From contig JAJEKV010000057.1 in NCBI GenBank assembly GCA_021234155.1, positions 7,164,623-7,228,622 on the forward strand: a stretch of DNA of 64,000 nt. Direction: 5' to 3'. The notes beneath the pieces are model-generated. The model searched no databases. It saw only the letters and a list, made by a program, of their open reading frames with translations, and had not been told where the DNA came from. Origin of the DNA: Isoetes taiwanensis (lineage: Eukaryota > Streptophyta > Lycopodiopsida > Isoetales > Isoetaceae). Made by a program: the position numbers and the translations under genes. This document shows, piece after piece, positions 4,325 to 62,092 of this stretch (position 1 is the first letter of the stretch; each line of letters begins with the position of its first letter).

Positions 4325-4498
4325 CCTCTTGCTCTACCAACAAACAGAAGTTTTCCAGAAGTTTTTTACTGTCAAATTTTGCCATCAAAAATAAATTTCG
4401 AAATGCTAATTAATTTACATTCCAACCAAAAGCAAAGTCTATGCACCACCAAAGAAGTAACTTCATCACCAAAAGCTCAACTGACAATCCTAAATGAG
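4325..4498 (+). repeat. Left end of duplicated unit A, up to the ATGAG target site
   Basis: 4325-4450 matches 45913-46025 in the same orientation. About 4450-4498 matches the reverse complement of 49825-49870. The segment stops at ATGAG (4494-4498), the target duplication of the gypsy element that follows. It shows where unit A starts and gives the left side of the occupied site. Confidence 0.85.
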
Positions 4499-6036
4499 TG
4501 TGACGGTCCAGAGGAATATACGCCATAAATACGTATATTCCTGGACCATTATCCACGTGGCCTTAACCTATTGGGCACCCGCCACCCAGGACGCACCCGA
4601 TTGGTGCCACGTGGCATCCTAGGTGGACCTAACTTATATAGGCTGGAACCCTAACCCTAGGCCTCTTTCCAGCCCTAGCACCCAGAGACTCATCTACTGC
4701 GTTGAAACCCCGTTTGAACATCGCGTCTAACGTGGCATAGGACCGGTGCGGCGGCCCGTAGGGTAGACTTCGTTCTTGGAGCAAGAGCAGCATCCGTGAG
4801 TCGAAGACCATGGAGGCACCGGATCGGAGGGAGAGCATCGGGAGGCGGTATGTAGAGTAGTAGTTGTGATAGCTCATCCGGAATTAGCATTCCGGATGTG
4901 CTAGTATCTTGTATCTAGAGTAGAGCCATCCTAGAACCCGTATTCAACATCTTGAACCCTAATCAATGAACCCTAACCATTAGTTAGATTTGTATGATTA
5001 GGTTAAGATGTTCTTCTCATGATCATACTTAGGATATGATGATTATGTGATGTTGGTTGATCATGTTTGCTCCTCTTGTATTGGGAAGGGGGGTAGAGAC
5101 CTAGGGCCATATGTAGTATGCTCCTAGAGTAGATCCCTTAGTTCCTATTAGTTGCGGCCTGTGCATAGGAGCCCACCAGGCTATCGAGGCTATGACGAGA
5201 CTCAGCACCACATAACGGGGCTAGATGGAATGTGGAGGGAGGATCCCTGCCGAGTGGGGGCTTCGGGGGATCCCATAGTGGGCTAGGCTTATGGTCGGTC
5301 ACTTCGTGTGGGCCGAGCATGGGTCTGACACCTCCTGGGGCAATGGTGACGCCCTGCCTCTCGAGAGCTGCAAGTGTTGGCTTGGCTCTCATTTTGGGGG
5401 GTTAAATCGGGTACGAATCGTGTGTCGCCCGCGATTCTCTAGCCGCCACGGAACCTCTAGACCACTGGGAAGGGGAGATGCAACCCTTCTCCCTCATCGG
5501 ACCGAGGGAGATGCAACACTGGAGTAGTCAGATGGGTGATGCCATGGGATTTGCGTGTCCGGAAGGCTAGAGTCATGCGAGCCTGATTTAGCCCATCCGC
5601 AAAGTATGCACAGGAGGTGCGGATGGAGTGGTCAACCCTAGCCATTGTTCTATGCCGACCCCGCCATTGCCATGACTCGGTGCGCTCTATCTTGAGGCCC
5701 TAGCGGTCGGGTCATCCTCCTTATGAGTCCGGGCACGGGTAGGAGCTCTCATGTTTTACGGTTTATGCTTATCATCTTTGTAGTGATATATGTGAGATGC
5801 ACTACCCTTCGAGGTAGCACTTATATGTTTGATGCTAGTTCTGACATGTTATCGCTTCCGCTGTTATAGGAGCCCATAGGGGAAGGGCGCGCAAGACACC
5901 TTCGTGTTCCCTCCCCGCACTAGGGATCACCTCAGAGTGCGGGGTAGACGAAGGGCCCGTGCGGTTGTTGAGCCGGACGGGGGATTTCCTGCCAAGTGTA
6001 CGGCTGGGCGCCGTATGTTTAGCAGGGAGCGTCACA
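4499..6036 (+). repeat. 5' LTR of the H3-carrying gypsy element
   Basis: Starts TGTGACGGTC and ends GCGTCACA. It is nearly co-linear with 15737-17382 but lacks a 105-bp U3 segment present there (15784-15888). The remaining differences cluster at CG-containing spots. It holds a TATA box and telo-box motifs. Confidence 0.96.
4634..4661 (+). promoter_or_regulatory. LTR core promoter: TATA box plus telo-box repeat
   Basis: TTATATAGG at 4634-4642 is followed at 4647 by AACCCTAACCCTAGG, two overlapping telo-box units. Two more AACCCTAA units lie near 4958 and 4970. The same arrangement occurs in the 3' LTR near 15977-16004. Telo-boxes are common near plant transcription starts and are bound by TRB-type proteins. 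Their use in this LTR is inferred. Confidence 0.6.
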
Positions 6037-6037
6037 A

Positions 6038-6049
6038 TGGTATCAGAGC
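6038..6049 (+). other. Primer binding site for initiator Met-tRNA
   Basis: TGGTATCAGAGC lies one base after the 5' LTR. It is complementary to the 3' end of plant initiator Met-tRNA, the usual primer for minus-strand synthesis in plant LTR retrotransposons. Confidence 0.93.
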
Positions 6050-6615
6050 AATGTTCTTGGTTGACCAGGAACTAGCACTGACCATAACCATGAAAGTAGT
6101 CTAACAAGCCTATAGGAGGTGTGAAATAAACATTTCCACCATTGAACCGCGAAAATAGGGGAAAAAATTTTTTCTCCTAGGTAGTGGGTCAGGATTTAGG
6201 CTAAGTGTTAGACGAAGGAATGAGTGAGTCAAATTTATCTTCTAGTAAATTTGGAGTGGAAATTATGCATCAGCGTCAAGTTTCACCTAAAATGGGTCGA
6301 AGAATCATACCAATCGGAGACCCGAGTGAAAAATGGCGCAAATCCATAATTCACACTTCAAACCATTAGAAAATTCGAAAATTTAAGGTATAATACGAAT
6401 TAATACAGGATTAATACATACTTTAATAATTAAATAATTACTAAATATGGTGTAATTAATAAGGGAGGGCTAATAAATAGGGGTAATTATGGTGAGAGAA
6501 TATTCCTAGGGACCCTCCTTTTTAAATATCTGACACCTCATTCTCTCTCTCCAACTTTTCACCTCCACCTCTCTCTTACTCAGCCTTACTTCACCCATTT
6601 CCTGAACCGTAAGAT
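6050..6615 (+). other. Untranslated leader of the gypsy element
   Basis: A 566-bp AT-rich leader with no ORF. It ends in a CT-rich stretch just before the H3-like start codon. Its low GC content contrasts sharply with the GC-rich ORF that follows. Confidence 0.7.
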
Positions 6616-7734
6616 ATGGCTCGCACTAAGCAAACAGCCAGGAAGTACAAAGAGCGCCCCACCCTCTCCATGGCGCAAGCGGCAGCGGGTCGACATATCA
6701 ACAAGGTCCCCGAGCACCTTCGGCCAAAGCCAGGAGATGAAGAGTCCCCCGCCAGCAGCAGCAGCAGCAGCGACGACTCCTTTCACGATGCTGAGGAGAC
6801 GTCCAACAGCAGCAGCTCTTCGTCGGCGGGCACGCAGAGAACCGACGAGTCCCGCCACTTCGGGCCCTCGGACACTGAAGTGGAAGAACAGGAGGAGGAG
6901 CAGGCGGAAGTGCAGCAGCAGCAGCACCAAACCCAGGAGGCGGGCCCTTCAGCACCCAAGAAGAAGGGCAAGGAGAAAGTTGCAGAGTGGCCGGAAGAGA
7001 AGGCTGCTAGGAAGAAGCGGGAGCGGGAGCGGGAGCGGAGGCAGCAGGAAAGGAGGACAAAGAGGAGGAACGATGGGCCTCGCCGGACCATCGTTATAGA
7101 GGAGCCTCAACAGGAAGAGGAGGCGCAGGAGGGCGGAGATGGTGAAGAGGAGGAGGAGGAGCAGCAGGGCCCCGACGCGAGACCACCTTACCCTAAGTGG
7201 CCAGAACCACCAAAGGTGGTCAAAAAGCAAAAGGTGGGAGAGCGAGAATTCATGCTCCATCAGGATCGTGAATTCTTGCGGAAAATGAAGGCGTATCAGG
7301 AGTACCTCCGTCGCTGGACGAGGTACAATGACTGGTACTGCCGTCAGGAGGTGCAGCGGGTTGTGGAGGGCGGCAGGCCGAAGAAGAACCAACCCAAGCC
7401 ACCCCCACCTAGACCGGAAAAACCCAAAAGGGTTCACCACGGGCCGAACAGCACGTACGCCCGGGTGTTTAGGGAGATAAGGCACTTCCAGATGTGCACG
7501 AATCTCCTGATAAGGAAGGCGCCCTTCGAGCGTCTCCTTAGGGAAGTAATGCAGGAGTTCCGGACAGATTATAGGGTCATCCCTCTAATGACCCGGGCCC
7601 TGCAAGAGGCCGCCGAAGCAGAGCTGGTGCAGCTCTTCGAGGAAGGGAATCTCTGTGCCATCCATGCTAAGAGAGTTACCCTTATGCCAAAGGATATTCA
7701 CTTAGCACGGAGGATTCGCAGGGAGAGGCCCTAA
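6616..7734 (+). CDS. Retrotransposon-encoded histone H3-like protein with long charged linker
   Basis: A 372-residue intact ORF. Residues 1-10 read [10 protein letters not shown], identical to the H3 tail through K9, including R2, K4, R8 and K9; S10 is replaced by Tyr. Residues 11-41 diverge but end RPKPG, recalling the RPG just before the H3 alphaN helix. A linker of about 235 residues follows: Ser/Asp/Glu-rich (~42-95), Gln-rich, Lys/Arg-rich (~115-165), Glu-rich (~165-185), then a Trp/Tyr-containing and Pro-rich part. Residues ~276-372 form a full H3 fold: REIRHFQ (alphaN), [15 protein letters not shown] (alpha1), [16 protein letters not shown] (alpha2), [20 protein letters not shown] (alpha3) and RRIRRERP. 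By eye 37 of the last 45 residues equal canonical H3, including the Cys and His of NLCAIHAK. Canonical H3 is ~135 residues, so this looks like an H3 opened between tail and alphaN. The start is fixed by the tail match. Nucleosome incorporation, chromatin mimicry or packaging roles are inference. Confidence 0.93.
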
Positions 7735-8530
7735 GCCTCAAATTTTGTAAATTTTGTAGAAAAGTTAAAATTTTCATGTAACTGTATTTTCTTATTAATA
7801 TAAAAGTTATTTCCCTCTGTAATTAGAAAATGTTGGATGCTTGAAATCTAGGAAATAGAACCCAATTGTAGTAGAATTCTTCATAGCACGCTTAAGAATA
7901 CCTTAGAAATCATGACTACAACGAAATTTTGGCAAAAAAATCATCAAAAAAAGCAAAAATCGAGGCAACCGGGTGAGACCGCGCTAATGGCCTCTGCGTC
8001 CGCGACGCGGGCGCGTTTCACGCGGATTCACCCGACTGCCCCAAAAGCATGCTTTTAGATGTCTGTTTTGCTCAAAATAAGTTGCTAGTTAGGTTAGAAT
8101 CGGCCCAATTAGCCATGTTAGCATCTTTAAACTCCCAAAAATGACCAAAAATGGCTCCAAAATAGGCTAACCGGGTGAGACCGCGGCAAACGCGTCCGCG
8201 ACGCGGAGGCCATCCGCGCGGATTCACCCGTGTCAGCCCATTTTTGACCTAAATTAGCCAAATTTGATCCAACAAATTGCCATGTAGTGTTTCTTGCTTT
8301 GTTTTGCTTAAGTTTGCACTTCATGGTAGCTCAATTGGACACCCAGAGCCATAGAACCAAGGCCTTCCTAGGTAGGTACCTTTTTGCACGAACCCCGAGG
8401 TCAACCATAGTCTATAAAAAGAGGTCTCATTTGCCATTTTTTCTTCTACAGAACTGCTCCCAGCCCCTTAGGCGATTTTCTGATCCTTCACTGATCTTTG
8501 CAAGCCATTTTTTGCACCCTTTACTACTCA
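7735..8530 (+). other. Intercistronic region with two related GC-rich hairpins
   Basis: Non-coding and AT-rich, except for two similar GC islands at 7969-8034 and 8171-8230. Each opens with CCGGGTGAGACCGCG, contains CGTCCGCGACGCGG and closes with GCGGATTCACCCG, so its ends pair (CGGGTGA with TCACCCG). About 200 bp separate them. They could be RNA structures affecting processing or translation between ORFs, or remnants of a duplicated insert. Confidence 0.7.
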
Positions 8531-10300
8531 ATGGCGCCCAGCAACTTTGAAAGATGGTACAATGCTGCAAACCATATCCATCAGCTTCCTGTAGATCAAG
8601 CCTTCTCTGTGTTCGACCACTTGTTTGATCTTCATGCAACTCTGACTAGAACACCATACTACACAGACATTATGTGCCAATATGACCAGCAGGTCCTGCC
8701 TTGGGAAGTTAGACTGCCCCCTAGGGGAGGGAATTGGGTTTCTCTTGAGACACTCACCCAAGCCTTAGGTCGAGAGTTGGTAGGATCCAAAGGCAAGAAG
8801 CAGCTATGGGATAGGACCAGGACCATGCCCGATTACATGACCTGCAGACACAATAGGCATAGGTACCTTTTGTCTCAGACAACCCTTGCCCTTTTCATGC
8901 ACTATAAGTCAATCAACAAAGTAGGGGAACCTTCTGTTCAGCCCTTAGACTTAGCACCACTTGATACCCGTAGGGCCCAGGATCAAATCCTGAATATAGA
9001 GTCCTCTGCCTATGAATACCATGGCACGATGTCAGGGGCACCAGTTCTGCAGATCCATGAAGACTACGAGTAGTTAAAGGAGCAAAACCCAGAATGGGAG
9101 AGCAGGGAGGCAACAAGGATGCAGAGATACATGTCGAGACACGATGACGACATCAGAAGAGCTACCGAGCCACCGGTCGGCATCACAGCTCTGTCGCCGA
9201 TAGTCATCGACGGGGAGGAGTACATTTTTGCAAACGACATCCTCAACTTGTCGTATTGCCAGGAACAGGGTCTTCAAATTGACGAACTCTTAGGCATGAT
9301 AGCACATGGGAAGAGCGCAGACTTCATCGACTATTCATACCAGGAGATTCCAAGGGAGCTGGCGGAGAGACACTCTTATGCTGGGGAGACAATGTCGGAT
9401 ATAGCCGCCTATCAGTAGATAAGGGAGATCTATCGACAGCAAGAACCTATCATTTCAAAGGAGGAGTTCCAGCAGATACAGAGCACACTCTACAAACCAG
9501 GGAGGGGCCCAAGCTCCAGCCGAACAGTTCGAGCCAGGAGCATGAGGGAAGGGTCTAGCAGCATCAACTTAGACAACGCAACCAGCATGTGGAGAGATCA
9601 CGAAGATCTTATGGCAGTAGATGCCTACGGCGAAGCAGCTCAAAGGAAGGGCACTGGATCGCGAGGCACAGGGAAGGGCACGGCACTTCGCTACTATCTT
9701 CCAGCCCTTAGCCAAGGGCAAATGATAGTCTTCCACAAGGAGTTCAGCCCAAGGGGGGAAGAATCCGTGGCACTTCTCATAGCACTCTCGGGCTTCGGGC
9801 AGCACTCGAAGATATCCCGGGGGATTCACCTTTGATCAGCGTATAACCCATGAGAGTTCAACGGAGGGGTGTTTTTTGGACCATTTGCGTACGTATACTT
9901 AGGGGTGTTTTTAGGCACTAATTTGGAGCAATATCTATACACAGAGGGATCAAGTTGCCTTTTAAAATTGCGTATACAAGGGGGGTTTTTTGCTACCCTA
10001 TGAACGCAGATGCCATACCCCCCTTATGTATAAGTGCATCCCCCGGGGAAGATATACGCCCATGCAGACCACATCATCCTTTTCAACAGGGCCGTCGCGC
10101 TCCATTGCCTCGACTTTGCGAGGGGGCACCTTAGGGACGCAACACTTTCAGTGGTAGCAGCAACGGCACCAGAACTCCCGGAACCAGAAATGACCCGAGC
10201 ACTTGAAGGAAGATCGACAAGGAACATCTTGCGCAACCTCGGCAAAGGCCTGCGATTAAGGGATGTCAAGAACTTCTTCAAGCTTTCAGGAGGCCATTGA
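8531..10300 (+). pseudogene. Second extra ORF of the gypsy element, unknown function, interrupted by a MITE
   Basis: One reading frame runs from ATG at 8531 to 9835, broken only by two amber codons (TAG at 9071-9073 and 9416-9418). At 9816 a 233-bp MITE is inserted. Beyond it the same protein resumes at 10056 in the frame expected if the MITE and one target copy are ignored, and ends at a TGA near 10300. The undisturbed protein would be about 510 residues. It starts MAPSNFERWYNAANHIHQ, is rich in Arg, Gln and Tyr, and has a Ser/Arg/Gly segment around 9500-9660. I recognise no domain. Its place between the H3-like ORF and gag suggests an accessory or gag-like role, which is inference. Both stops could be C-to-T changes at CAG codons. 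Confidence 0.7.
9816..10048. mobile_element. 233-bp MITE with CCCGGGGGAT termini inside the gypsy element
   Basis: The ends are CCCGGGGGATTCAC and, inverted, CCCCGGGGGATGCAC. AAGATAT flanks both sides (9809-9815 and 10049-10055) as a 7-bp or slightly longer target duplication. Related copies occur at 17873-18082 and 49137-49352, with a weaker one near 28965-29150. It splits the second extra ORF, so it inserted after the retrotransposon or its parent copy formed. Confidence 0.85.
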
Positions 10301-10599
10301 ATAGTTGTAAAATTTTCTTAAGTTTTGTGCTAAATGTTTTCTTGTACCCCATTGTGCTAAGACATATCTACTCTAGCATGTAATCTTTATGTATTAATGA
10401 CTATTAACTGTTTTATAAATGCAAGGCCTTGTATGGTTTCCTTTATAACTAAAGATAATTCAATTACAAGTAAGATTGATCAACATCTAACCCAAATAAC
10501 ATGTATTGATGATCAATCCTTGCAGCAAGGAACTCAAGTGCAAGATCCCAAGACCAGCACCGACAACGCAATTGGGTACCAAGGAATTTGTTTGGCAGA

Positions 10600-11875
10600 G
10601 AACAAGAAGACTTTGAGCAGGATATGTCACCAGAGGCAATCAACGCAAGGCTGATGCAGATGAGGAACCAGATGCAACACTTGATCAACTGGGCGACACC
10701 TCTGATGAATGAGCAGGAAGATGGTCCTCTACCTCCACCTCCACCTTGTCTTAGGGTGGTGGCCTAAGTCCCTCGCCGGGAAGGGGAGGGCACTAAGGGG
10801 AACGTCGGGGATAGGAGAAGGAAGAGGAGAACCAGGAGCCCATCGTCATCTAGCTCCAGCTCATCGAGGCGGTTCTTCCGGTGAGGACAGCTCTAGCTCG
10901 GCCAATCGGTCAGATACACCTAGAGCAAGGAAAAAAGCAAGCAAGAAAGGCGGATGACTATCGAGAAAAAGGTGGATAGTGCTATGAGCAGCATTATGGA
11001 AGACAAGGAAGGCGGGCGGTTCTCGGGAAAGATAGATCGGGCATGGAGGTGAAGCATGGCTTGATGAAATGGAAGAATTTGGCAACTCCTACGGTATGAA
11101 AGACAAGGACATAGGGAAAGTTGCTGACTAACCTTATTGGATCGGCAAGGATCCGGTGGAAGGGATATGCTAAGTCTAACAAGTGAAGAGGAACAATTGC
11201 AGATTTAAGACCTTGACAAGGCTTTCCGTAAGCACTATGTGCCAAGGTCTCATACTAGTATGTGATCCCAGTTTTACAAGGTTGAATGTGGTAGCTTGTC
11301 AAGAGCTAAGTATAAAGAAGAATTCATGAGTCTCGTGCTCCATGTTCCCCGAGTCTCGAAGGCCAGAAGTGGATACCTACATTGAGGGATTGAACAACAA
11401 TATCAAGAGGCTTGTTAGAGCAATCAACCCAAGGTGGATTCAAGAGAGGCCTAAGATAAAGCTATAAGTTTGGAGGAGGCACCAAAGCAACTCCAGCAGA
11501 GAAGCAAATCAACCTTCAGGGGGTAAGAGTTGAGGCGTGATCGGGGGCAATATCGGGGTAAGCAATCAGCAGCTACACCATCAGGAGGCCGGCAACAAGG
11601 TAAGAGTCGAACAAAGCTTTTTGGGGACCGTAAGCCACGAGGAATGCATCAGGAGGCAATGCTCTTAAGCCGTCTCCTAGACCGATGCCGAAGGAGAAGA
11701 GACAGAATGCATTGAGAAAAAAAACTATGCTTCAGTGCTTCGGCCCGTGGCAATCAACGCATGATTGCCCATTCGTCATGCAGGCAGACCTTGGCCGGTA
11801 ACTTGTGGATTGGGATTCCCCAAACGAAGCCGGGCGAGGCGGCGACCACCTCGCCAGGAGGCCGGGACTTCATAG
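10600..11875 (+). pseudogene. gag: Degenerate gag region of the H3-carrying gypsy element
   Basis: A coding block around ATG 10624 reads MSPEAINARLMQMRNQMQHL followed by a proline run. A Ser-rich and Lys/Arg-rich stretch and pieces of a capsid-like region follow (for example AFRKHYVPR near 11220), all broken by stops and frame changes. Near 11735-11775 the sequence C-F-G-P-W-Q-S-T-H-D-C-P resembles a zinc knuckle that has lost one cysteine. Gag would form the particle that packages element RNA. This region immediately precedes protease. Confidence 0.7.
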
Positions 11876-12397
11876 ATGGTGAGTGCCACATATGTGCAAA
11901 CATTGAGTCGTGATATTGAGAATCACGACCGATCATTATCAGCGGCTGATGGGATCATAGATAGTAATCCATATGTAGTCCTCATAGATACAGGTAGCTC
12001 TCACAATTTTGCATCTCCTAGGTTGGCTGCCCTAATGAAGAACAAGGTATTGAAGTCTAAGCCAAGGCCAGTGGCTATGGCAAATGGCGCCATTCGGCAC
12101 ACTAAGGGGAGGAGGATCATCTTTGACATAGACCTTAGTGGGGCTAAGTGGCCGATGGGGGCGGAAGTCATGGATATCGGAAGATATGATCTTATAGTGG
12201 GGATGGAATTCTTGAAGCCAGCTAAAGCCATGATTGATTGCGACCGGAACGAAGTCACCATGACGGCACCAGACGGCAGCAAATTGATAGTGAAAGGTAA
12301 GAAGGTAGATTCTCTCATACAGTGTATCTCTTTGAAGCAGTTAAGGAAGAGTATAGAAAGGAATAAGGTGGTACATCTTGAGGATGGAATCAGTTGA
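11876..12397 (+). pseudogene. Aspartic protease domain (gypsy 1)
   Basis: An open stretch of 173 codons contains L-I-D-T-G-S-S-H-N-F near residue 37, the catalytic D-T/S-G loop of retropepsins, and later YDLIVGMEFL, the conserved hydrophobic-G motif near the domain's C-terminus. It would cleave the Gag-Pol polyprotein. The frame stops at 12397; the polyprotein probably continued into reverse transcriptase, so the stop reflects decay or a consensus error. Confidence 0.88.
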
Positions 12398-13244
12398 GCC
12401 AGGCAAGCAGAATGGAAGTGACCCAAAGGGGGAATCAATTGCCCAGGCAGATAGCAAGGCTTATTTCAGAGTTCAAGGATGTATTTCCAGATGAAATCCG
12501 CAGCTGCCACCTTATAGGGGTGTGGAATGTGAGATCACATTGGCTCCAGATGCGAAGCCTACCAGTAAGGCGCCATATAGAATGAGCACCCCAGAATTGA
12601 TTGAGCTCAAGAAGTAGCTTCAGGAATTGCTCGAGCTTGGGTTTATAAGAGCAAGTGTGTCTCCTTTCGGAGCACCTATACTCTTTGTGAAGAAGAAAGA
12701 TGGGAGCTTAAGAATGTGCATAGACTATCGCCAGCTCAATAAGCAGACGATAAAGAACAAATATGCATTGCCAAGGGCAGATGACCTAATGCACCAGTTA
12801 CAAGGAGCAAAGGTATTCTCTAAAATTGATTTGAGGTCAGGATACCACCAGATAAGAATAAAAGAAGAGGATATCTATAAGACCGCTTTTAGAACGCGGT
12901 ATGGTCACTTTGAGTTTACAGTAATGCCCTTTGGATTGTCGAACGCTCCAGAAACATTTATGCGCCTCATGAACGACATCTTCAGAGACTTCTTGGATGA
13001 GTTTGTTATTGTCTTCTTCGACGACATTCTAATCTACAGCAAGTCCATTGAGGAACATTGTCAGCATCTCAGGAAAGTGTTGGAAAAGTTGAGACGTCAT
13101 CGGTTGTATGGGAAGCTCTCCAAATGCCACTTTGCAACAGGCCGAGTGGAATATTTGGGCCATGTAGTAACATCCGAGGGAATCTCCACAGATCCATCTA
13201 AGATTGAGGCAATAGTTGATTGGCCAGCTCCAAGGAATGTGTAA
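12394..13244 (+). pseudogene. Reverse transcriptase domain (gypsy 1)
   Basis: A connecting segment (EFKDVFPDE near 12470) leads, after a frameshift around 12500-12600, into a 205-codon open stretch (12627-13244). It holds the Ty3/gypsy order of motifs: [48 protein letters not shown] and FFDDILIYS, where the two catalytic aspartates replace the more usual YVDD/YIDD context, then [11 protein letters not shown]. It would copy element RNA to DNA. The catalytic residues look intact although the frame breaks on both sides. Confidence 0.93.
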
Positions 13245-13830
13245 GTAAAGAAGCTTTCTTTCGGGTTGGCATGGATATTACGTAAAGTTCGTGGAAGGAC
13301 TTTTGCTAAGTGGGCATCCCTCCGGCTCGGACCTCACCAAGACCAAGAAGATTAAGGATTGGACTAGCCATTGGTTAGAGAAAGTCCAAGCTTCCTTCGA
13401 AGCTTAAGGAGGCCTTTAACAACGGCACCATTGCTTGTTCTCCGGATCCGAGTAAAGATAAGTTGGTAGCAGCGGATGCAGCAAGATAGCAACAGAGCAG
13501 ATCTTGATGCAAGAAGGAAGGGTAGTTGCCTACGACTCGGCTAAGAAGAAGATGAACGACGCCGAAAGCAACGCTACCCAACCCATGATCGGGGAGCTGC
13601 TAGCCATTGTCGTATGCTAAGGATATGGAGGCATTATTTCTTTCGGGAGGAAGTTTCAATTAGATAACCGATCACCGAGTCTTCAGTATCTTTTCACCCA
13701 GCCACTCCTCAACTTAAGGCAAAGGAGGTGGATGGAATTCCTTGAGGAGTATGATTTTGATATTATATATAAGCCCGGCAAGCTTAATGTTGTAGCAGAT
13801 GCCCTCTCCAGGAGACCATTTCAGACAAGG
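13245..13830 (+). pseudogene. RNase H region (gypsy 1), frame-broken
   Basis: Recognisable pieces in several frames: GRVVAYDSAKKKMNDAESNA, then a decayed E-L-L-A-I-V segment, then a clean stretch from 13732 with FLEEYDFDIIYKPGKLNVVA and DALSR. That last part is the usual end of the gypsy RNase H/connection region. The domain degrades the RNA strand of the hybrid during reverse transcription. Several indels lie near CG sites. Confidence 0.8.
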
Positions 13831-15030
13831 ACGCATTGTAATGCGATTTCCACTCTTTCGAGTGAGTTTGGCAAGAAGATTGAGGAGTCCTTGCCAACGG
13901 ATGTGGACTTCAAGGAGGTGTGGGAAAGCCTCTCCAAGGAAGCCAGAACAGATAAAGAGCGGGAAGCCTTCAAGCATTATAAGAAGGAAGGCAACCTGTT
14001 GTATCATAAGCATAAGTTGTGTGTGCCCGAATCATCAGGAGTAAGGAAGTTAATTCTCCATGACACACATAACAGCCCAATAGCAGGGCATGCCGGCTTC
14101 ATGAAGACCTATTTCAAGATTCGAAGTAGTTACTTCTGGCCAGGAATGAAGAGGCAGATAGCTGCATATATTTTGGGGATTGTCAGTTATGCCAGCAGAC
14201 CAAAGCGGAGCAACTTCGGATTCCAGGTGCTTTAGAGCCATTGGGGGTGCCAAATGCGAAGTGGGAGGTCATAAGCATGGATTTCATCACAGATCTCCCT
14301 AGAACTCTTCGAGGCAAGGATGCATTGATGGTTGTCGTAGATAAGTTATCTAAGATGGCACATTTTGTGCCTTGCAAGACTACTGACACCGCATTAGACA
14401 CTGCCAAGTTATTTGTAAGGGAGATTTTTAGACTCCATGGCATGCCTCGGGAGATAATATCTGATAGAGATTCTAAGTTTATGAGTGCCTTTTGGCAGGA
14501 TCTCTTTAGCTCTCCATGAGCATGGCATATCATCCCCAAACAGATGGCCAGACGGAGAGGACGAATCGGATCATTGAAGACATGCTTCGAAGTTATGTGT
14601 GGAACAAGCAGTCCAAGTGGGATGAGTACATCCACTTGGTGGAATTCGCCTACAATAGTGCCAAGCAAGAGTCATCGCAGATGTCTCCTTTCATGGTAAA
14701 TTACGGGTACCAGTGCCTAACCCCGGACACCTGGCACAATCCTGTGTCGAAGGTGGAAGTATCCCAGCAGATGTTAGGGGATATGCAGCAGTTAGTGGAG
14801 GAAGTAAGGGTTACTTATTGGCAGCAAGAAGTCGGCAGAAGAGTGTAGCCGACAAGCACAGGACCGTAAGAGAGTTCAAGGTAAGCGATAGCGTTTGGTT
14901 GAAGATCAAGGTGAAGCAAGCCAAGCTTCGGATTGGGAGTTGTAAGAAGCTTGCCCCTAGGTGGGCGGGATACGCCTTTAAGGCATTCTCTAGGCCACAC
15001 GCACCAAGAGGTGCGCATGACCATTAGGGT
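13830..15030 (+). pseudogene. Integrase (gypsy 1), frame-broken
   Basis: The N-terminal zinc domain is visible (LILHDTHNSPIAGHAGFMKT, then YFWPGMKRQI), but its second Cys pair is damaged around 14180. The catalytic core follows from 14241: VISMDFITDLPRT (first Asp), a shifted IISDRDSKFMSAFW (second Asp), and from 14516 YHPQTDGQTERTNRIIEDML (Glu). The C-terminal part has FKVSDSVWLKIKVKQAKL and KLAPRWAGY, then stops at 15027. No chromodomain is apparent. Integrase would insert the cDNA into chromatin. Confidence 0.9.
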
Positions 15031-15736
15031 CATGTGAGTGAGGAATGAGGCATGGTGGGCGATGATGGGACATCGATCGGATGATCTCTATGCCACGATG
15101 CGGGGGACGCACACCTGGCCGTAGGAGGGTCATGGTGAAGGTTAAAGTGATCATGCGTGATGATGGGATCGTGAGACGTTCCCTAGCTTCAAACCCTTGG
15201 GGCATGATGCACTAGGGGTACTCGGCACCGGGTAACCGAGTACAAGGTAGCACTCGATCATGGGCAATGATGGGAGCATCTTAAATGATCCTTAAGCTCA
15301 AATCCAAAAGGGCCATGATCTTGGGCAAGGTAGTAGGATAACCTTGAGCCAGTAGTTCGGCTCAAGGAGGTAAGGGGGGTGGTCCCCTAAAACCACAAAT
15401 TATTAACTAAACTAACGTAATGTGCTCCTTTTGCAGGCAAGTAGAAGGTGGACTTCAACGAGGAGCGCATTACGAGAAGACAGGGAGAGCCATAATTTAG
15501 ATTATGAACCCTAATAACCCTTATAATAATATTTTGAATTGTCATAAGAAATAACGTTGTCAAGGCTATATAATTTTGTATAAGTACAAATATAGCCTAA
15601 ATTTTGACTTTAACTAATAAAACTTGATTGTTGAAGTAAACTAAAGGCTATGACATGTTGTTTCTTTTGCAGGCATAAGATAGGTTCGTCACTTTAGCGC
15701 AATGCTGAGGACAGCATTGTCCTAAGGGGGGGAGAA
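15031..15736 (+). other. 3' untranslated region and polypurine tract of gypsy 1
   Basis: No convincing ORF. Two TTTTGCAG sequences near 15430 and 15665 resemble splice acceptors, so spliced transcripts are possible. 15724-15736 (AAGGGGGGGAGAA) is the polypurine tract that primes plus-strand synthesis, directly abutting the 3' LTR. Confidence 0.8.
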
Positions 15737-17382
15737 TGTGACGGTCTAGAGGAATATACGCCATAAATACGTATATTCCTGGATCCGTCACTATACAAGT
15801 CTATCTTCATAGCCTTGTATACCATAGATTGTGGCACTAGGGGGCATGGCCAAGTTATTCACATAACTTAGCCAACCATAGGTTAAGACCATTATCCACG
15901 TGGCCTTAACCTATTGGGCACCCGCCACCCAGGACGCACCTGATTGGTGCCACGTGGCATCCTAATTGGACCTAACTTATATAGGCTGGAACCCTAACCC
16001 TAGGCCTCTTTCCAGCCCTAGCACCCAGAGACTCATCTACTCGTTCGAAACCCTGTTTCGAACATCGTTTGCTGTGGCATAGACTGGTGCAGCAGCCCCC
16101 GTAGGGTAGACTCGTTCTTGGAGCAAGAGCAGCATCACGTGAGTCGAAAACCATGGAGGCACACGGATCTAGAGGGAGAGCATCAGGGGCAGGTATGTAG
16201 AGTAGTAGTTGTGATAGCTCATCTGGAATTAGCATTCCAGATGTGCTAGTATCTTGTATCTAGAGTAGAGCCATCCTAGAACCCGTATTCAACATCTTGA
16301 ACCCTAGTCAATGAACCCTAACCATTAGTTAGATTTGTATGATTAGGTTAAGATGTTCTTCTCATGATCATACTTAGGATATGATGATTATGTGATGTTG
16401 GTTGATCATGTTTGCTCCTCTTGTATTGGGAAGGGGGGTAGAGACCTAGGGCCATATGTAGTATGCTCCTAGAGTAGATCCCTTAGTTCCTATTAGTTGC
16501 GGCCTGTGCATAGGAGCCCACCAGGCTATCGAGGCTATGACGAGACTCAGCACCACATAATGGGGCTAGAGGGAATGTGGAGGGAGGATCCCCGCCGAAA
16601 GTGGGGGCCGGGGGGATCCCATAGTGGGCTAGGGCTTATGGTCGGTCACTGCGGTGGGCCGAGCATGGGTCCGACACCTCCCGGGCAATGGTGACGCCGC
16701 CTCTCGAGAGCTGCAAGTGTTGGCTTGGCTCGCTTTGGGGGGTTAAGTCGGGCACGAATCGCGGTGTCGCCACGATTCTCTAGCCGCCCACGGAATCTCT
16801 AGACCTGGGGAAGGGAGATGCAACCCTTCCCCGCCTCATCCGGACCGGGGAGATGCAACACCGAGTAGTCCCGGATGGGTGATGCCATGGGATTATGCGT
16901 GTCAGGAAGGCTAGAGTCATGCCGAGCCTCGATTTAGCCCATCCGCAAAGTATGCATGTGGAGGGGCGGATGGAGTGGTCAACCCTAGCCATTGTTCTAT
17001 GCCAGCCCTCGCCATTGCCATGACTCGGTCTGCTCTATCTTGAGGCCTAGCCAGTCAGTCATCCTCCTTATGAGTCTGAGCCTAGGTAGGAGCTCTCATG
17101 TTTTACGGTTTATGCTTATCATCTTTGTAGTGATATATGTGAGATGCACTACCCTTCGAGGTAGCACTTATATGTTTGATGCTAGTTCTGACATGTTATC
17201 GCTTCCGCTGTTATAGGAGCCCATAGGGGAAGGGCGCGCAAGACACCTTCGTGTTCCCTCCCCGCACTAGGGATCACCTCAGAGTGCGGGGTAGACGAAG
17301 GGTCCGTGCGGTTGTTGAGCCGGACGGGGGATTTCCTGCCAAGTGTACGGCTGGCGCCGTATGTTTAGCAGGGAGCGTCACA
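15737..17382 (+). repeat. 3' LTR of the H3-carrying gypsy element
   Basis: Starts TGTGACGGTC, ends GCGTCACA, and is followed by the ATGAG target copy. It keeps 105 bp of U3 (15784-15888) missing from the 5' LTR; the deletion point in the 5' copy lies between short GA repeats. Confidence 0.96.
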
Positions 17383-19747
17383 ATGAGTCCGCCAAGGAAT
17401 ATCAAATAAGTCATTAAAGAACGTGAACAACCCAAAGGATATGTAAGATGCAAAAGGGCATTGTCGATATTTTCTTGAGCCGGTGTTTAGTTCTACCTGG
17501 TGTTCAAAATGCCCTTAAAATTTTCCTAGATTTCATCAGTTCAAGTGAATTTCTCAAGATTCCCTAGGATTCTATAATATTCCATGAAGATTCCTTGAGA
17601 CCTCTAAAGATTCCATATATTCCCTTAAATCCCTTGAAAATCCTAAGTTTCCTTCATAATCTGTCAAACTCTCTTCAGATTCTCTAAGGTTCTCTCATGA
17701 TGTCGCAATGTTCTAATACGACAAAGTGATGCCAAATAATACTCAATTTGTAAGCATTAAATGGAATCGTAATTACTATATTACGTGTCATTCAAGCTTA
17801 AAAAATGTGATAACTCTTTTAAATGTTACTCTTTTATTTTTCTTAACATATGTTATAAAAGTGGTGCCATGCCTCGAGGAATGCACTTATACATAAGGAG
17901 CATATGGCATTTGTGTTTGAAAGGTAGCAAAAGATCTCCTCCCTATACAGAATTTGCATTAGACCAGTGCTTAAAAGCATCCCTAACCCCTAAGTACACA
18001 TACAAAAAATGGTCTCAAAACAATCCCATCCCTTGAGCTCTCTTGAATTATACGCCAAATAAAGGTGAATCCCTCGAAGATTATATATCAATATTAACGT
18101 GAGCACTCCAAATAGACTATCATGTGACAACTCTCATGTTAAGATAGCACATGGCAATTGAGACCTAAATGCCAATTTGTTGAAGGTAGTGCAATAACAA
18201 GCAACCACATTATTTGTAGCCTATTTGCTTTAGGCATAACAATATTCTAATGACTGCGCAAGCAACCACAAGATATGCATACCCTAACCAAACATGCCAA
18301 AAAGCTTTAAGAACCTTGGAGTTCCAGACTAGATATGGCTAATCCACATTCTTTTATTGGACAATACTTACTCCAAGCAATTTCCACAACTGCACCTCTC
18401 ATTGCCATGCCAAACAAAAATATGAAATGTGGCAATGTTCCTTTTTTAAGTTTTGTGATGCTGAAATTAATGTACACAGTTGATATAGATTAGGTATGAG
18501 CAACTTTACCTAGTGATTAGTTGGTTCTAGATTTTATCTAGTAGTAGTACAGACAGATGTTCATGAACTCGATGAGGGCCAGCTTGATGTTGTAGTACAA
18601 CTGAGGTTTGATCTAGCAAGTCATAACGCCTCTATGAATTTATGTCTAAATACAAATATCTAGCATTAATAACAGGGGATCCCTTTGTATTTTGTATACT
18701 TTTCAATATGACTTTTGCTACGATTTAGTGGTGTATTCGAGTTTTTATACTAATGCATACATCAAAAGTGAGCACTGTAGTTCATGTTAAAATTCCACTT
18801 TCCTAATGGTTTAGCCTCATGTTTGCATAGCTTGTTGCATCTTTAAGTTCTTAATCAAGAGGCTCACATGCATATGCCGAGCTCTTACTTTCTAGAGTAA
18901 GGCTTATAAACTATAGGGCCTATAAACTATCCAGTTTCATTCTTTGATTCACAGAAGGAGAAGCTCTGATTGGTAGGGAAGCGGCACAAGAAAATTTATT
19001 TGGAGCTTCGAATCTCCTTCCCTGATGGTCGGTCGCGTAGTGAGAGTTCTATTTAACCGTCCTATGAACAAGCAGCAGTGGTATGCATATATATTGGGCA
19101 ATTATTTTTGCCTCTACAGAAAGCAAGTGCATCATTACTGAAAATTACAAGCAATACCAGCTTAAGCATCCAAAGTGGAACGAAACAACATTGCCTTAAT
19201 ACCAATAATAATTCTAGACCCAGTTTGAGTCGTGCCTAGCGGGCTTTTCCAAACGAAGAATATCAGAATTTATTGCTTTTTGCAGGGTAAGTAGTGCTAA
19301 CAGGTTAGAGCCTAGATTTGTACTTTTTGATATTCAATTGGAGCTTTCCATTATGTGCTTAAACCGTGAACATATATTCTATGCATAGTTGGGTCGACCT
19401 ACCAACCTAAATGTGGATTTCTTGCCGACCTACCGACCCATTCTGCCAAAATCCAAATTTGTAGTTTAATGCAGATAGTTCATAAACAACCTTCAATACA
19501 TCTATAACGACTACTACTCCTGATTAAACAGAAAATAGATGAACTTAAACTAAGCAACTTATAGTGTTACGAACAGAATTACAGGTGCATGAATTAGAAC
19601 ATGGCATAAAAGGGAATGAAGAGATACGTAACTACAAGAAAAAAAAGGGGGCAGAATGAAATATGCTATTAAGAATTAAAAGATAAGGCAAATAAGATGT
19701 TCTCAAGAATTAATATTTGCACTCGAATTTATAGTGCATGCTGCAGG
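17383..19747 (+). repeat. Unit A, first-half segment (matches inverted 47459-49829)
   Basis: Resumes unit A after gypsy 1 and aligns, reverse-complemented, with 47459-49829 over its whole length. It ends at GCAGG, the target of the copia element. No gene is supported. A region near 17440-17760 (repeated ATTCC/TTCCTT-rich text) recurs near 30420-30730 and 50480-50740. Confidence 0.9.
17873..18082. mobile_element. MITE copy, CCTCGAGGAATGCAC / GGTGAATCCCTCGA termini
   Basis: The inverted ends and internal text match the MITE at 9816-10048 in reverse orientation, and its paralogue at 49137-49352. Presence in both units shows it inserted before the segmental duplication. Confidence 0.75.
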
Positions 19748-20562: not shown

Positions 20563-21375
20563 TGAGCATTCTATGCAGCCATACCTCTGTGGGGTTGCAG
20601 CACCTTGCTTGAGGAAGATGGAAGGCAATATCTTCTGGAAACGAAGAGGCCCCTCCCATAGTAGTTGTGGTTGTAGAGAAGTATGCGATATTTTTCTTCT
20701 TAGCCTGTACTTGGAACTAGGTGCACGAACTGTAGTACTCTTGCCTTAATGAAGAGGTTGAGGCTGCTATTGTAATGGAGTATGGGACTACTATATATCG
20801 GTGGAACTCTGGTTTGATCCTCCATAGTACTGAGTTTGTGGGAAGAAGCGGAGTACAGACTCTTTCGGTTTGAACTTCAGGGTGGTGGTACTATCCTCTG
20901 GAAAAGGATCATAGCTGCTGTAGTACTATGAGCAGCGGAAGAGGATGGATCAGCTGGACCTCCTACCTAGTATGGACTTCCATTGTCTATGACGAGACTA
21001 CTTCTCTAGGTAAATCATTCGGGCTGTTCTTCATGATCAAGAGTAGTAGCTTTGATGGGCTCCATAGTCATAAGCAGCTTTCCATAGTAGTTGAAGCATG
21101 TGGGAAGATGGTAACGCCTTACAGTACTGTGGAGGTTGAGAAGGGGCTGCCCATCTATCTGCAATTACGGTGAAGAGGTTGAGGGAGCTTGCCATAGTAC
21201 ACAGTTATGGCTCTACATCGACCTCTAGCATTGTGTTTGCTTTGCATCGTGTGCTAATTCTTCCGATCTAGTGACCAAGAGCATTGTATACTTCCTATCT
21301 GGCCTATTGTGGAGCCCACAAGAAGGTTGTGTACCTTGTTTTTATATTAATCAAAAAATTCTTACCCTCAAAAAA
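20563..21375 (+). mobile_element. 813-bp retroposon-like insert in the copia RNase H
   Basis: AAATTATT is duplicated on both sides (20555-20562 and 21376-21383) and the insert ends in an A-run, as expected for a SINE- or mRNA-like retroposon on the plus strand. It has no inverted termini. Its first ~19 bases nearly repeat the copia sequence just upstream (20539-20557), suggesting template switching during insertion. CATAGTA/TAGTAC motifs recur inside. No coding region was recognised. Confidence 0.7.
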
Positions 21376-21383
21376 AAATTATT

Positions 21384-22309
21384 TCAGAGGCTGCCTGCGA
21401 TACCGCCACATATTCTGCTTCAGCGCTACATTCGGCTACACCCATATTTTTCGGGCACATCTTACTACAGATTTTCATACCTGGTGCAATGGGCGTTGTC
21501 GATATATTGCAATCCATCATCCTAAATCGAATCAAAGCTTTCTTAATATTTTGCTCTTGTGTCAAAAAAAGCTCCCCTTTTCTCCTATCTCTCATAACCT
21601 CCATACCCAACAATTTCTTAAGCTCACCCAGTTCGGACATTTGAAATCGTCCTTTCAAGGACGCTTGACATCTTTCCAGATACAATTTGTCATTACTAGC
21701 CATCACACAATCATCAACATAAAGTGCCATGATTAAGCACTTGTCTCCTTCTTCCCACATGTATAAATTGCCTTCCGTCTTCAATTTTCTAAATCCTATG
21801 GAAAGTAAAAAGTTATTCATGCATATGTACCATTGTCTAGATGCTTGTCTTAGGCCATAAACTGCTTTTCTCAATCTACAGACCATATTCTTTCCTTGCT
21901 CGTATCCTTCAAGCTGCTCCATATAAATTTCTTCTTCTAAGTCTCCATTCAAGAATGTTGTCTTCACATCCCTGTGCTCTATTTCCATATCATTTTGAAC
22001 TGCTAATGCTATCAAGGTTCTCAGACTAGTCACCTTGACTATAAATGAGAATGTATTTGTATAGTCTACTCCTGCTTCCTGAGTATACCCTTTTGCCACT
22101 AGACATGCTTTATACCTTTCTATCGAACCATCAGCATTCCTCTTTATTTTAAATAGCCATTTACTCCCTACCACATTCTTGCACTTAGGGCGTGGTACTA
22201 GCTCGTAGGTTCCTGTTTCTTTAAAGGACTTCAACTCGTTTTCCATAGCCTCCTTCCATTTTAGAGAATCTGGTCCCATCATGGCTTGCTCCACTGTCCT
22301 GGGCTCCAC
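21384..22309 (-). pseudogene. Copia reverse transcriptase
   Basis: An open stretch of ~310 codons contains WKEAMENELKSF, SKWLFKIKRNADGSIERYKA, LVAKGYTQEAGVDY, HRDVKTTFLNGDLEEEIYM, VYGLRQASRQW and the catalytic MALYVDDCVMAS. It then passes, apparently through an internal deletion, directly into SAEAEYVAVSQAASEI of RNase H, where the 813-bp insert begins. Reverse transcriptase motifs are well preserved. Confidence 0.93.
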
Positions 22310-22862
22310 TATGCAAGATATTATCTTTGGCTTTGGAACTCTTTTTGTTCTACCATAAAGTTCTAAGTTCGGCTTTAAGACGCTCTATCTCATTGCGACG
22401 TGCATATCTTCCCCTTGCTCCACTTTCAATATCTTCTTGCATTCTCTGATGTGCATCGTCTTGCCCTTCAATTGGCGCACTATCGGCTTCTGAAGTTTCA
22501 TGCATCTCCTCCCGCTCTATGCGGCGCACTATTGACTTCTATGGTCTCATGCACCTCATTCGGTTCATCATCTGTGTCAACATCTATTACTATGTCTGGT
22601 TTCTCTACTATCTTCTCATTTTCGTTCTCCGCATTGTCTCCAAGAAAGTCTGTCGGTATCCATTATTCTTCTTCTTGCTTTGTCAATGTCTTCCTGTCTT
22701 TATACAATAATTTCTCGTCAAATTCAACGTCTCTGCTATGTAAATTTTGTGTGTCACCGGGTCATACAACCTATAGCCATTCGTTTCCTCGTCATATCCT
22801 ACTAAGAAAGTGGGGATACTGTGATCACCCAGCTTTCCTCGCAGCTCCTCTGGCACCAACAT

Positions 22863-23480
22863 TTAGGCTAAGCATCCATAAACCCTCAATCGATGGACAG
22901 ACTGTCTTTTTCTAGACCATGTCTCTTCAGGAACGGCTCCCTTTAATGCAGATGTCGGCAACCTATTCTGCACATAGCAAGCAGTGGCTACTGCTTCTCC
23001 CCACAAAAAATTGGGTAATCCTGCATGCTTCAGCATGCATCTGGCCGCATCCATAATGTTGCGATTTTTACGCTCTGCCACACCGTTTTGTTGAGGTGTA
23101 TATCGACACGTGTACTACCTCTTGATTCCATGCATCTGATAGAATTTTATAAATTCTCCTGACCTATATTCACCTCCAAAGTCTGTCCTTAAAGGTTTTA
23201 CTCGTGAAAACGTCTCACGTTCCACCTCTGCAATATAAAGTCGGAAAGCATCGAACACCTGAACTTTTGAGCGGAGATAATAACATTTGGTGCGCCTGCT
23301 AAAATTATCTATAAAAGTAGCAAAATAGGATTTGCCCCCAAGACTCTGTACTTGCATGGGTCCACACACGTCAGAGTGCACCAATTCAAGCAACTCAGTC
23401 ACTCGTCGTCCTTTATTTTTAAAAGGAAGTCTAGTTTGCTTTCCTAGCATACAAGCCTCACACATGCTCTTCATCATCAA
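22863..23480 (-). pseudogene. Copia integrase core
   Basis: Contains MCEACMLGKQTRLPF, ELVHSDVCGPMQ (first Asp), PLRTDFGGEYRS (second Asp), a stop near 23118, then NRNIMDAARCMLKHAGLPNF and FLWGEAVATACYVQNRLPT after the catalytic Glu region (GVAERKNR). One in-frame stop or shift splits the domain. The block 22310-22862 between integrase and reverse transcriptase is acidic connector-like and frame-broken. Confidence 0.9.
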
Positions 23481-23991
23481 ATGTCAACCCATCTAACAAT
23501 TTATGTTTTTTTGCAATTTTAATACTGTTGTAATTTACATGTGCCATCCTAAGGTGCCAAATATGCAGATCATTCATGATCAAAACTTTGTTAATAGTAT
23601 CTACGTTCAATTCAAACAAATTTCCATTTTTTTGAGCCTCAAAGGTTTTCATACCCTCTTTTATAAATTTGCATCCAGTCTTGTGAAATCTCAACTCAAA
23701 ACCATCATCCACTAAATTGGCAACAGAAATGAGATTGAATGACATACCCAGCGCATATAACACATTTGGCACATTAAGAATTGCTTTACCTTCCTTTACC
23801 AGTTCCAGAGTTCCACGTCCATGAACTTCTTGAAGAACTCCATTTCCCATCTGGACCACTCCAGGGTTTTCGTCATTTTTAACCTGCCGCAACATCTCAG
23901 GTGTGCTTACCACAGAAACCTCGGCTCCAGAATCTATGGTTAATACACCATTGTTCCTTCGACAATTAGCAATTGCTCCAATCGCCCCCAA
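23458..23991 (-). pseudogene. Copia protease and GAG-pre-integrase domain
   Basis: Contains LTIDSGAEVSVVS (catalytic Asp), then LNVPNVLYALGMSFNLISV and the pre-integrase zinc-binding segment LHIWHLRMAHVNYNSIKIAK. It overlaps the integrase block by a frame change near 23460. Upstream (23992-24278) only decayed gag 3' sequence remains. Confidence 0.9.
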
Positions 23992-61987: not shown

Positions 61988-62092
61988 TACTTGTGAATGA
62001 AATTTTAACCTCCCATTGGACTAATATCTACCTTGTTGATTTGGGATTTTCTGGTGTGTTGAGAATGTTTTTGGAATATTTCTAAAGCATGA

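Follow-up and report, generated by a model that had tools for sequence, protein, structure and literature searches.

hAT DNA transposons in Dothideomycete fungi have captured histone H3 and carry it in 26 to hundreds of copies, and the available sections of the report describe the extra copies as killed by RIP in six species and the event as recent in Pyrenophora (PMC6710886). The H4 of bracoviruses becomes part of host nucleosomes and exerts its effect via the tail, as set out in the accessible parts of two sources (PMC9145170; PMC5423620), and the word retrotransposon is absent from the text of the viral-histone review (PMC9145170). A screen of 121 angiosperm genomes yielded 15 extra domains, and no histone is among the domains described in the portion of that paper at hand (PMC9289625). 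The word histone is absent from a review on additional ORFs in plant LTR elements, and the main text of two Isoetes genome papers (one of them PMC8566536) makes no mention of histones. A sequence-only reading of the DNA considered here knew of no described LTR retrotransposon with an H3 gene; in agreement, no retrotransposon with its own core histone gene appeared among the papers listed by searches of open-access texts.

The window analysed, a stretch of 64,000 nucleotides from Isoetes taiwanensis, contains a Ty3 element extending from 4499 to 17382, in which the internal order between the LTRs is ORF1 (H3), ORF2, gag, PR, RT, RH and IN. ORF1 thereby precedes ORF2, which sits between it and gag. 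The features of the element are as follows.

4494..4498, no strand: left target-site duplication ATGAG, read from the sequence
4499..6036, plus strand: 5' LTR, TGTGACGG...CGTCACA, from direct repeats D1-D8 with ends read from the sequence
6038..6049, plus strand: primer-binding site (PBS) TGGTATCAGAGC, read from the sequence and from LTR-PBS junctions genome-wide
6616..7734, plus strand: ORF1 (H3 variant, 372 aa, intact), from the ORF call, Pfam, PDB match, genome copies and omega
6619..6645, plus strand: H3 N-terminal nonapeptide ARTKQTARK (residues 2-10), from copy comparison
6646..7461, plus strand: long charged linker, residues 11-282, from charge counts
7462..7731, plus strand: H3 alphaN and histone fold, residues 283-372, from Pfam, PDB, alignment and omega
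7971..8033, plus strand: GC-rich hairpin 1 in the ORF1-ORF2 spacer, from pairing across copies
8173..8229, plus strand: GC-rich hairpin 2 in the ORF1-ORF2 spacer, from pairing across copies
8531..10297, plus strand: ORF2, an orphan, with stops at 9071 and 9416 and an insertion, from comparison with copy L072
10513..11870, plus strand: gag remnant with a degenerate zinc knuckle near 11735, from comparison with other copies
11876..12397, plus strand: aspartic protease (RVP_2), Pfam 2.2e-9
12618..13244, plus strand: reverse transcriptase, Pfam 1.1e-39
13621..14969, plus strand: RNase H end and integrase remnant, the SH3/chromodomain part deleted after about 14969, from Pfam and alignment
15724..15736, plus strand: polypurine tract (PPT) AAGGGGGGGAGAA, read from the sequence
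15737..17382, plus strand: 3' LTR, from direct repeats with ends read from the sequence
17383..17387, no strand: right target-site duplication ATGAG, read from the sequence

The target-site duplication (TSD) is 5 bp long and perfect on both sides, and with it an LTR pair, a PBS and a PPT are all present, as in the structure of a Ty3 chromovirus; the element had been called a structurally complete Ty3/gypsy element at first reading, and each of these parts was found. The 5' LTR (1,538 bp) falls short of the 3' LTR (1,646 bp) by about 100 bp, and the pair, compared with LTR limits one base off those listed above, differs at 120 of 1,524 sites (K2P 0.084), a divergence that assembly errors may inflate. 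The PBS is one that we take to be of the initiator-Met tRNA type; plant chromoviruses have a PBS of the tRNA-Met type, as here. The coding pieces preserve the gag-PR-RT-RH-IN order of Ty3 chromoviruses, and gag, pol and IN are disrupted by stops and frame changes, in keeping with the earlier description of gag-pol in this copy as repeatedly broken. Because the I. taiwanensis assembly, as characterised in the accessible part of its paper, combined nanopore reads, short reads and optical mapping (PMC8566536), some of the broken frames in repeats may be assembly errors. A hAT-type carrier, with terminal inverted repeats and an 8-bp TSD, was rejected on the grounds that the carrier is an LTR element with a 5-bp TSD.

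Among the 17 window ORFs that reach 150 aa, ORF1 is the longest, with 372 codons from ATG to TAA and no internal stop; on both counts the first description was accurate, as it was on the exact ARTKQTARK start and the H3 fold. From the ARTKQTARK tip the protein passes into a charged arm of about 270 residues and then into the H3 alphaN and histone fold. By charge counts, the arm consists in order of Ser/acidic, basic, acidic and central segments, the basic segment (residues 111-160) having 21 K/R among its 50 residues. An H3-type histone fold is indicated by a Pfam Histone match (PF00125, residues 258-368, 3e-28), by a top PDB match that is an H3 (6.5e-31) and by an alignment to canonical H3 in which 59 of 87 residues are identical with no gaps. 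CENH3 is marked by a longer loop 1 and a divergent tail; a CENH3 identity was rejected because of the gapless 87-residue alignment, which bears on loop length, and the retained ARTKQTARK tail. The name CENP-A is absent among the 60 PDB matches listed of 181, all 60 being H3 types.

A search with the full-length protein returned 3,139 matches, of which the 120 listed cover 23-51% of ORF1, each with a histone domain in its listing, and residues 150-285 had no match at E<=1 among 196 candidates from 5.8 billion proteins. In viral contigs, four stretches fit a peptide pattern and none encodes a relative. AlphaFold models were too weak for a fold search, both for ORF1 with 25 H3-type proteins picked out of those 120 (mean pLDDT 53.2) and for the bare fold (mean pLDDT 47.9); the sole confident part of ORF1 is a helix at 208-251 (block means 82-96 over residues 211-250).

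For ORF2, represented by a 454-aa open stretch in L072, Pfam gave nothing at E<=10, and none of the 7,999 best candidates from 5.8 billion proteins matched at E<=1. Searches of protein sets say little about how widely ORF1 and ORF2 are distributed, because retrotransposon proteins are often absent from such sets. In the spacer before ORF2, pairing is retained in 447 of 459 pair cells in 17 distinct sequences of hairpin 1 and in 270 of 276 in 12 sequences of hairpin 2; these sequences were selected by stem motif, and pairs changed on both sides number one in hairpin 1 and none in hairpin 2. Perhaps the hairpins govern ORF2 translation. The 232 bp insertion within ORF2 (window 9816-10047) has inverted ends CCCGGGGGAT and an 8-bp duplication GAAGATAT, is absent from L072 and, by eye, looks like a MITE.

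Outside the element, the window has a tandem repeat of 42/84 bp at 525-798, built around the palindrome-like GTGTATTCCGGAATACAC, a Ty1/copia remnant on the minus strand at 21368-23991 (RVT_2 1.8e-63, Pol_BBD 3.1e-11, and gag_pre-integrs 1.7e-5, below cut-off), and a long strand-asymmetric pyrimidine tract at 60170-61860 with long low-complexity ORFs, the GC skew being -0.79 for 60001-62000.

The genome (1,658,258,908 bases in 1,110 sequences, with three matches to the plant marker matK) was searched for the 372-aa protein between the ends of this element, a check proposed with the initial reading. At least 110 copies of ORF1, 77-100% identical, were scored of 29,099 first-look candidates, and in many copies the spacing to the LTR-PBS junction and to the RT is the same; 79 of the 110 are stop-free in the matched stretch, a count based on stops and not on frameshifts, with some of the matches covering part of the ORF. 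Among 40 copies fetched with 2.8 kb upstream, the LTR start motif is present in 31, in most cases some 2,200 bp ahead of the ORF match; the exact PBS is likewise present in 31, and in 29 of them it lies 557-599 bp ahead of the match. On the downstream side, with the best 150 RT matches used for pairing, an RT match lies within 20 kb on the same strand for 30 of the 110 ORF1 matches, and 24 of the 30 fall at 5.6-6.0 kb, against 0.4 by chance; one further pair has its RT 5.8 kb away on the opposite side of the ORF.

Genome-wide, junctions of LTR end and PBS with at most one mismatch number 2,556, and the codon pattern for a decapeptide of the H3 fold occurs 595 times, with a reversed control of 0 in either case. 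The fold motif lies 1,577-1,667 bp downstream of 33 of the 100 first-listed exact junctions, the remaining 67 having no exact fold motif downstream, and such a junction precedes 33 of the 85 fold motifs compared. Forty-seven junctions on C1-C462 include 13 with an H3 start at 582-603 bp and 15 with a start or fold motif. For 17 RT matches on C1-C908, the fold motif was found 3.7-4.7 kb upstream in seven and at 9.2 kb in one and was absent in nine, two of which (on C200 and C390, both covered by the list of H3 starts) have a start 5.6-5.7 kb upstream. The motif has thus been lost or mutated in many copies. The idea had originally been held open to refutation by copies lacking the ORF, with this one a single host-gene insertion; some copies do lack a recognisable ORF, and the many copies at one fixed place contradict a single insertion.

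Other H3-containing repeats are present in the same genome. A canonical-H3 query found 15 full-length H3 genes at 96-98%, followed by a sharp drop, beyond which lie at least 135 more places, 71-86% identical, that cover H3 residues from 3-36 to 133-135. Many of them have open frames of 420-508 aa, one of 567 (e.g., C1061:1000192-1000491:-). None overlaps the 110 ORF1 matches and none has one of the 150 RT matches within 15 kb; when 29 of the 100 listed exact junctions were compared, a junction lay on the same strand about 1.7 kb upstream of one of the nine such places on C907. Starts of the form MARTKQTxRK number 1,385 genome-wide (reversed control 0), and the exact fold motif is about 1 kb downstream of 18 of the first 100 listed. 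Since these further places exist and most of the listed starts are without the exact fold motif, H3-containing repeats extend more widely than the family in the window, and two lineages of H3 ORFs, the window type and one closer to H3, may reside in one genome.

Selection was assessed on 70 of the 110 ORF1 copies, 52 of which are stop-free and entered pairwise codon counts. Summed over all pairs, dS was 0.917 and dN 0.105, giving an omega of 0.11, far from the value near 1 that had been named as evidence against the idea when dN/dS among copies was suggested as a check. By region, omega was 0.06 in the tail (residues 1-10), 0.17 in 11-40, 0.14 in 41-110, 0.06 in the basic segment (111-160), 0.18 in the acidic segment (161-190), 0.15 in the central segment (191-257), 0.09 in the linker at 258-282 and 0.07 in the H3 fold. 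When the pairs were binned by divergence (1,313 after saturated pairs were dropped from the 1,326 formed by 52 copies), omega was 0.155 at dS <0.1 (3 pairs) and 0.078 at dS >1.5 (458 pairs), and it fluctuated slightly in the bins between. The copies were picked by protein similarity, which biases them toward low dN; such a bias cannot easily yield pairs with dS near 1.9 and dN near 0.15, and cannot easily yield the 37 different codings of one decapeptide found among the 85 places compared (of 595 in total). It was concluded, with very little doubt, that ORF1 belongs to the element and that its protein is under strong purifying selection.

The 5' leader offers no neutral yardstick for these values, because it diverges less than third codon positions do (0.149 vs 0.420 in 591 pairs of 41 copies; 0.072 vs 0.248 in 224 pairs), which hints that the leader is constrained or has been homogenised by recombination. 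From the leader to the start of ORF2, divergence shows no sharp step (28 of the first 30 loci). The tail variant in which A7 is replaced by Y forms no single clade, as the common ancestor of its 21 tips spans all 70 copies in a quick midpoint-rooted tree, and this scatter suggests recombination or repeated change.

The residues kept and changed among the copies bear on what the protein does. A start (M) is readable in 65 of the 70 copies; K4 is present in all 65, and K9 and R8 in 63 each, the tail reading ARTKQTARK in 41, ARTKQTYRK in 19 and five other forms in the rest. In the fold, R63, K64, R83, H113, A114 and K115 are kept in 70 of 70 copies, C110, R116 and D123 in 69 and R72 in 68, and judged by nucleosome structure these presumably include DNA contacts and the H3-H3' interface. 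Retention of both is what an H3 variant would be expected to show. Among the changes from canonical H3, F41 has no counterpart, R40 is replaced by H, K56 by M/Q and K79 by R/V, and the SAVA of alpha2 (87-90) by L, M/T, T/S and R. The alpha2 site guides chaperones and decides the assembly pathway in other H3s, as covered in the available part of one review (PMC9145170). Because this site is changed, host chaperones may not handle the ORF1 protein as ordinary H3.

In the proposed mechanism, ORF1 derives from a host H3 that was captured by a Ty3 chromovirus family, and its protein probably pairs with host H4 and could, through the retained H3-H3' interface and DNA contacts, enter nucleosomes or tetrasomes. 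Its tail would be reduced to ARTKQTARK, with K4 and K9 and without the canonical K14-K36 segment, and displayed on a long charged arm. Nucleosomes of this kind, on the element's DNA or on chromatin close by, would make host tail marks beyond K9 hard to place, and they could keep new copies expressed or attract integration. Entry with host H4 is the simplest reading because the protein keeps much of nucleosomal H3 and drops the tail beyond K9, and there appears to be about an even chance that nucleosome entry is the selected function of ORF1.

The same residues bear on an unlikely alternative, in which the protein acts as a soluble decoy that offers an H3 tail to H3K4/K9 readers and writers, or holds H3 chaperones, and so weakens silencing. 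Such a role would fit a tail that is among the most conserved stretches, with an omega equal to that of the basic segment, the loss of the H3 tail beyond its ninth residue and the changed chaperone-recognition residues of alpha2. However, a decoy would have no need of the DNA contacts R63, R72, R83, K115 and R116 or of the H3-H3' interface, and the change of A7 to Y in 21 of 65 copies, together with a residue 10 that varies freely, would make a poor fit to classical K9 readers. Somewhat less likely again is that the basic arm and fold condense element RNA or cDNA in a virus-like particle or preintegration complex. Strong conservation of the basic segment is consistent with packaging, but the exact H3 N-terminus would be left unexplained, and a gag of this type already has a CCHC knuckle. 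The knuckle was identified by reading, with Pfam zinc-knuckle matches below cut-off, in L071, a pol stretch on C1056 whose frame is homologous to the window gag (Retrotrans_gag above and Ty3_capsid just below the curated cut-off).

L071 is open for 1,362 aa and matches protease, RT, RNase H, integrase (its core match, rve, slightly below cut-off), SH3-like and chromodomain sequences. Its chromodomain (PF00385, Chromo, 1.2e-10) lies in the open gag-pol frame of an element for which an H3 ORF is not established. The window copy aligns with L071 to about 14969 and resumes past a gap of about 474 bp that takes out the chromodomain. In L073 (C976:699950-700750), which follows the H3 copy L027 on its strand, an SH3-like part and an L071-type chromodomain are open in one frame, with the integrase core just before them in another; the RT lies 5,739 bp from the start of the L027 ORF, and the grouping rests on order along one strand. 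The sequence-only reading had proposed that H3 takes the place of a chromodomain missing from the element, which proved incorrect: a chromodomain stands at the integrase C-terminus in L071 and, after a frame change, in L073, and its absence from the window copy is a deletion. The H3-carrying family is a Ty3 chromovirus.

Nearest in the PDB to this chromodomain (VPELLLD...KWKHLP) are CHD1 chromodomains (4.6e-7), and by eye the first and the last of its cage sites carry no aromatic residue, the pattern of type II chromodomains, whose partner is unknown according to the accessible part of one source (PMC6317226). An improbable alternative is that the integrase chromodomain recognises nucleosomes containing the element's own H3. 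The H3 copy L027, its RT match 5.7 kb downstream and the open chromodomain stretch L073 follow in order on one strand, as such a pairing would predict, but the type II pattern names no partner (PMC6317226), and the frame change before the L073 stretch weakens the case for H3 and chromodomain together in one working element. More broadly, a retroelement with both an H3 variant and an integrase chromodomain could assemble its own type of nucleosome on new copies, to be read by factors of the element or of the host, and may tentatively be seen as a chromatin system that marks itself and is partly host-independent, a view that is possible though well short of probable. The idea of ORF1 as a passenger or artefact, whether through a single insertion of a host H3 gene or as a dead remnant, can practically be dismissed: gag-pol of the window copy is dead and some copies have no recognisable ORF, but many copies occupy one fixed place in the element, omega is low, LTR-PBS junctions run into the thousands (2,556) and the 15 full-length H3 genes form a separate class, and both host-gene insertion and chance were rejected on copy number, fixed position and dN/dS.

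The element probably uses ORF1 to shape chromatin, as far as sequence can indicate. If the ORF1 protein enters nucleosomes, the transposon would supply the very protein that bears silencing marks, and ORF1 would allow a direct test of which tail residues are relevant to silencing. From its architecture it also seems that H3 tolerates the addition of some 270 residues, as an arm that separates the K4/K9 tip from the fold.

Among known systems, the fungal hAT transposons are alike in having an H3 gene aboard a mobile element that multiplies it; unlike them, as far as the available sections of that report extend, where the carrier is a DNA transposon and a long added arm goes unmentioned, the carrier here is a retrotransposon and the protein is remodelled and has been under long purifying selection (PMC6710886). 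The Ty3 element of Phalaenopsis with an AlkB-type RNA demethylase ORF, as presented in the part of the paper at hand, is likewise a plant Ty3 element in which a host domain was captured as an extra ORF and kept, the domain being AlkB-type there and a histone here (PMC9289625). Bracovirus H4 and the H3 of xenomavirus and phycodnavirus share with ORF1 the condition of a parasite's core histone, often with an extended N-terminal tail, on a host-like fold, as far as the available portions of the two sources go (PMC9145170; PMC5423620). Their carriers are DNA viruses or virus-derived particles, whereas ORF1, known from sequence, resides in a retrotransposon. Finally, the PR-RT-RH-IN order, SH3-like region, integrase chromodomain and 5-bp TSD are those of plant chromoviruses as outlined in the accessible parts of two papers, and unlike the elements outlined there, this one has ORF1 and ORF2 in addition ahead of gag, the former encoding a histone (PMC3350952; PMC6317226).
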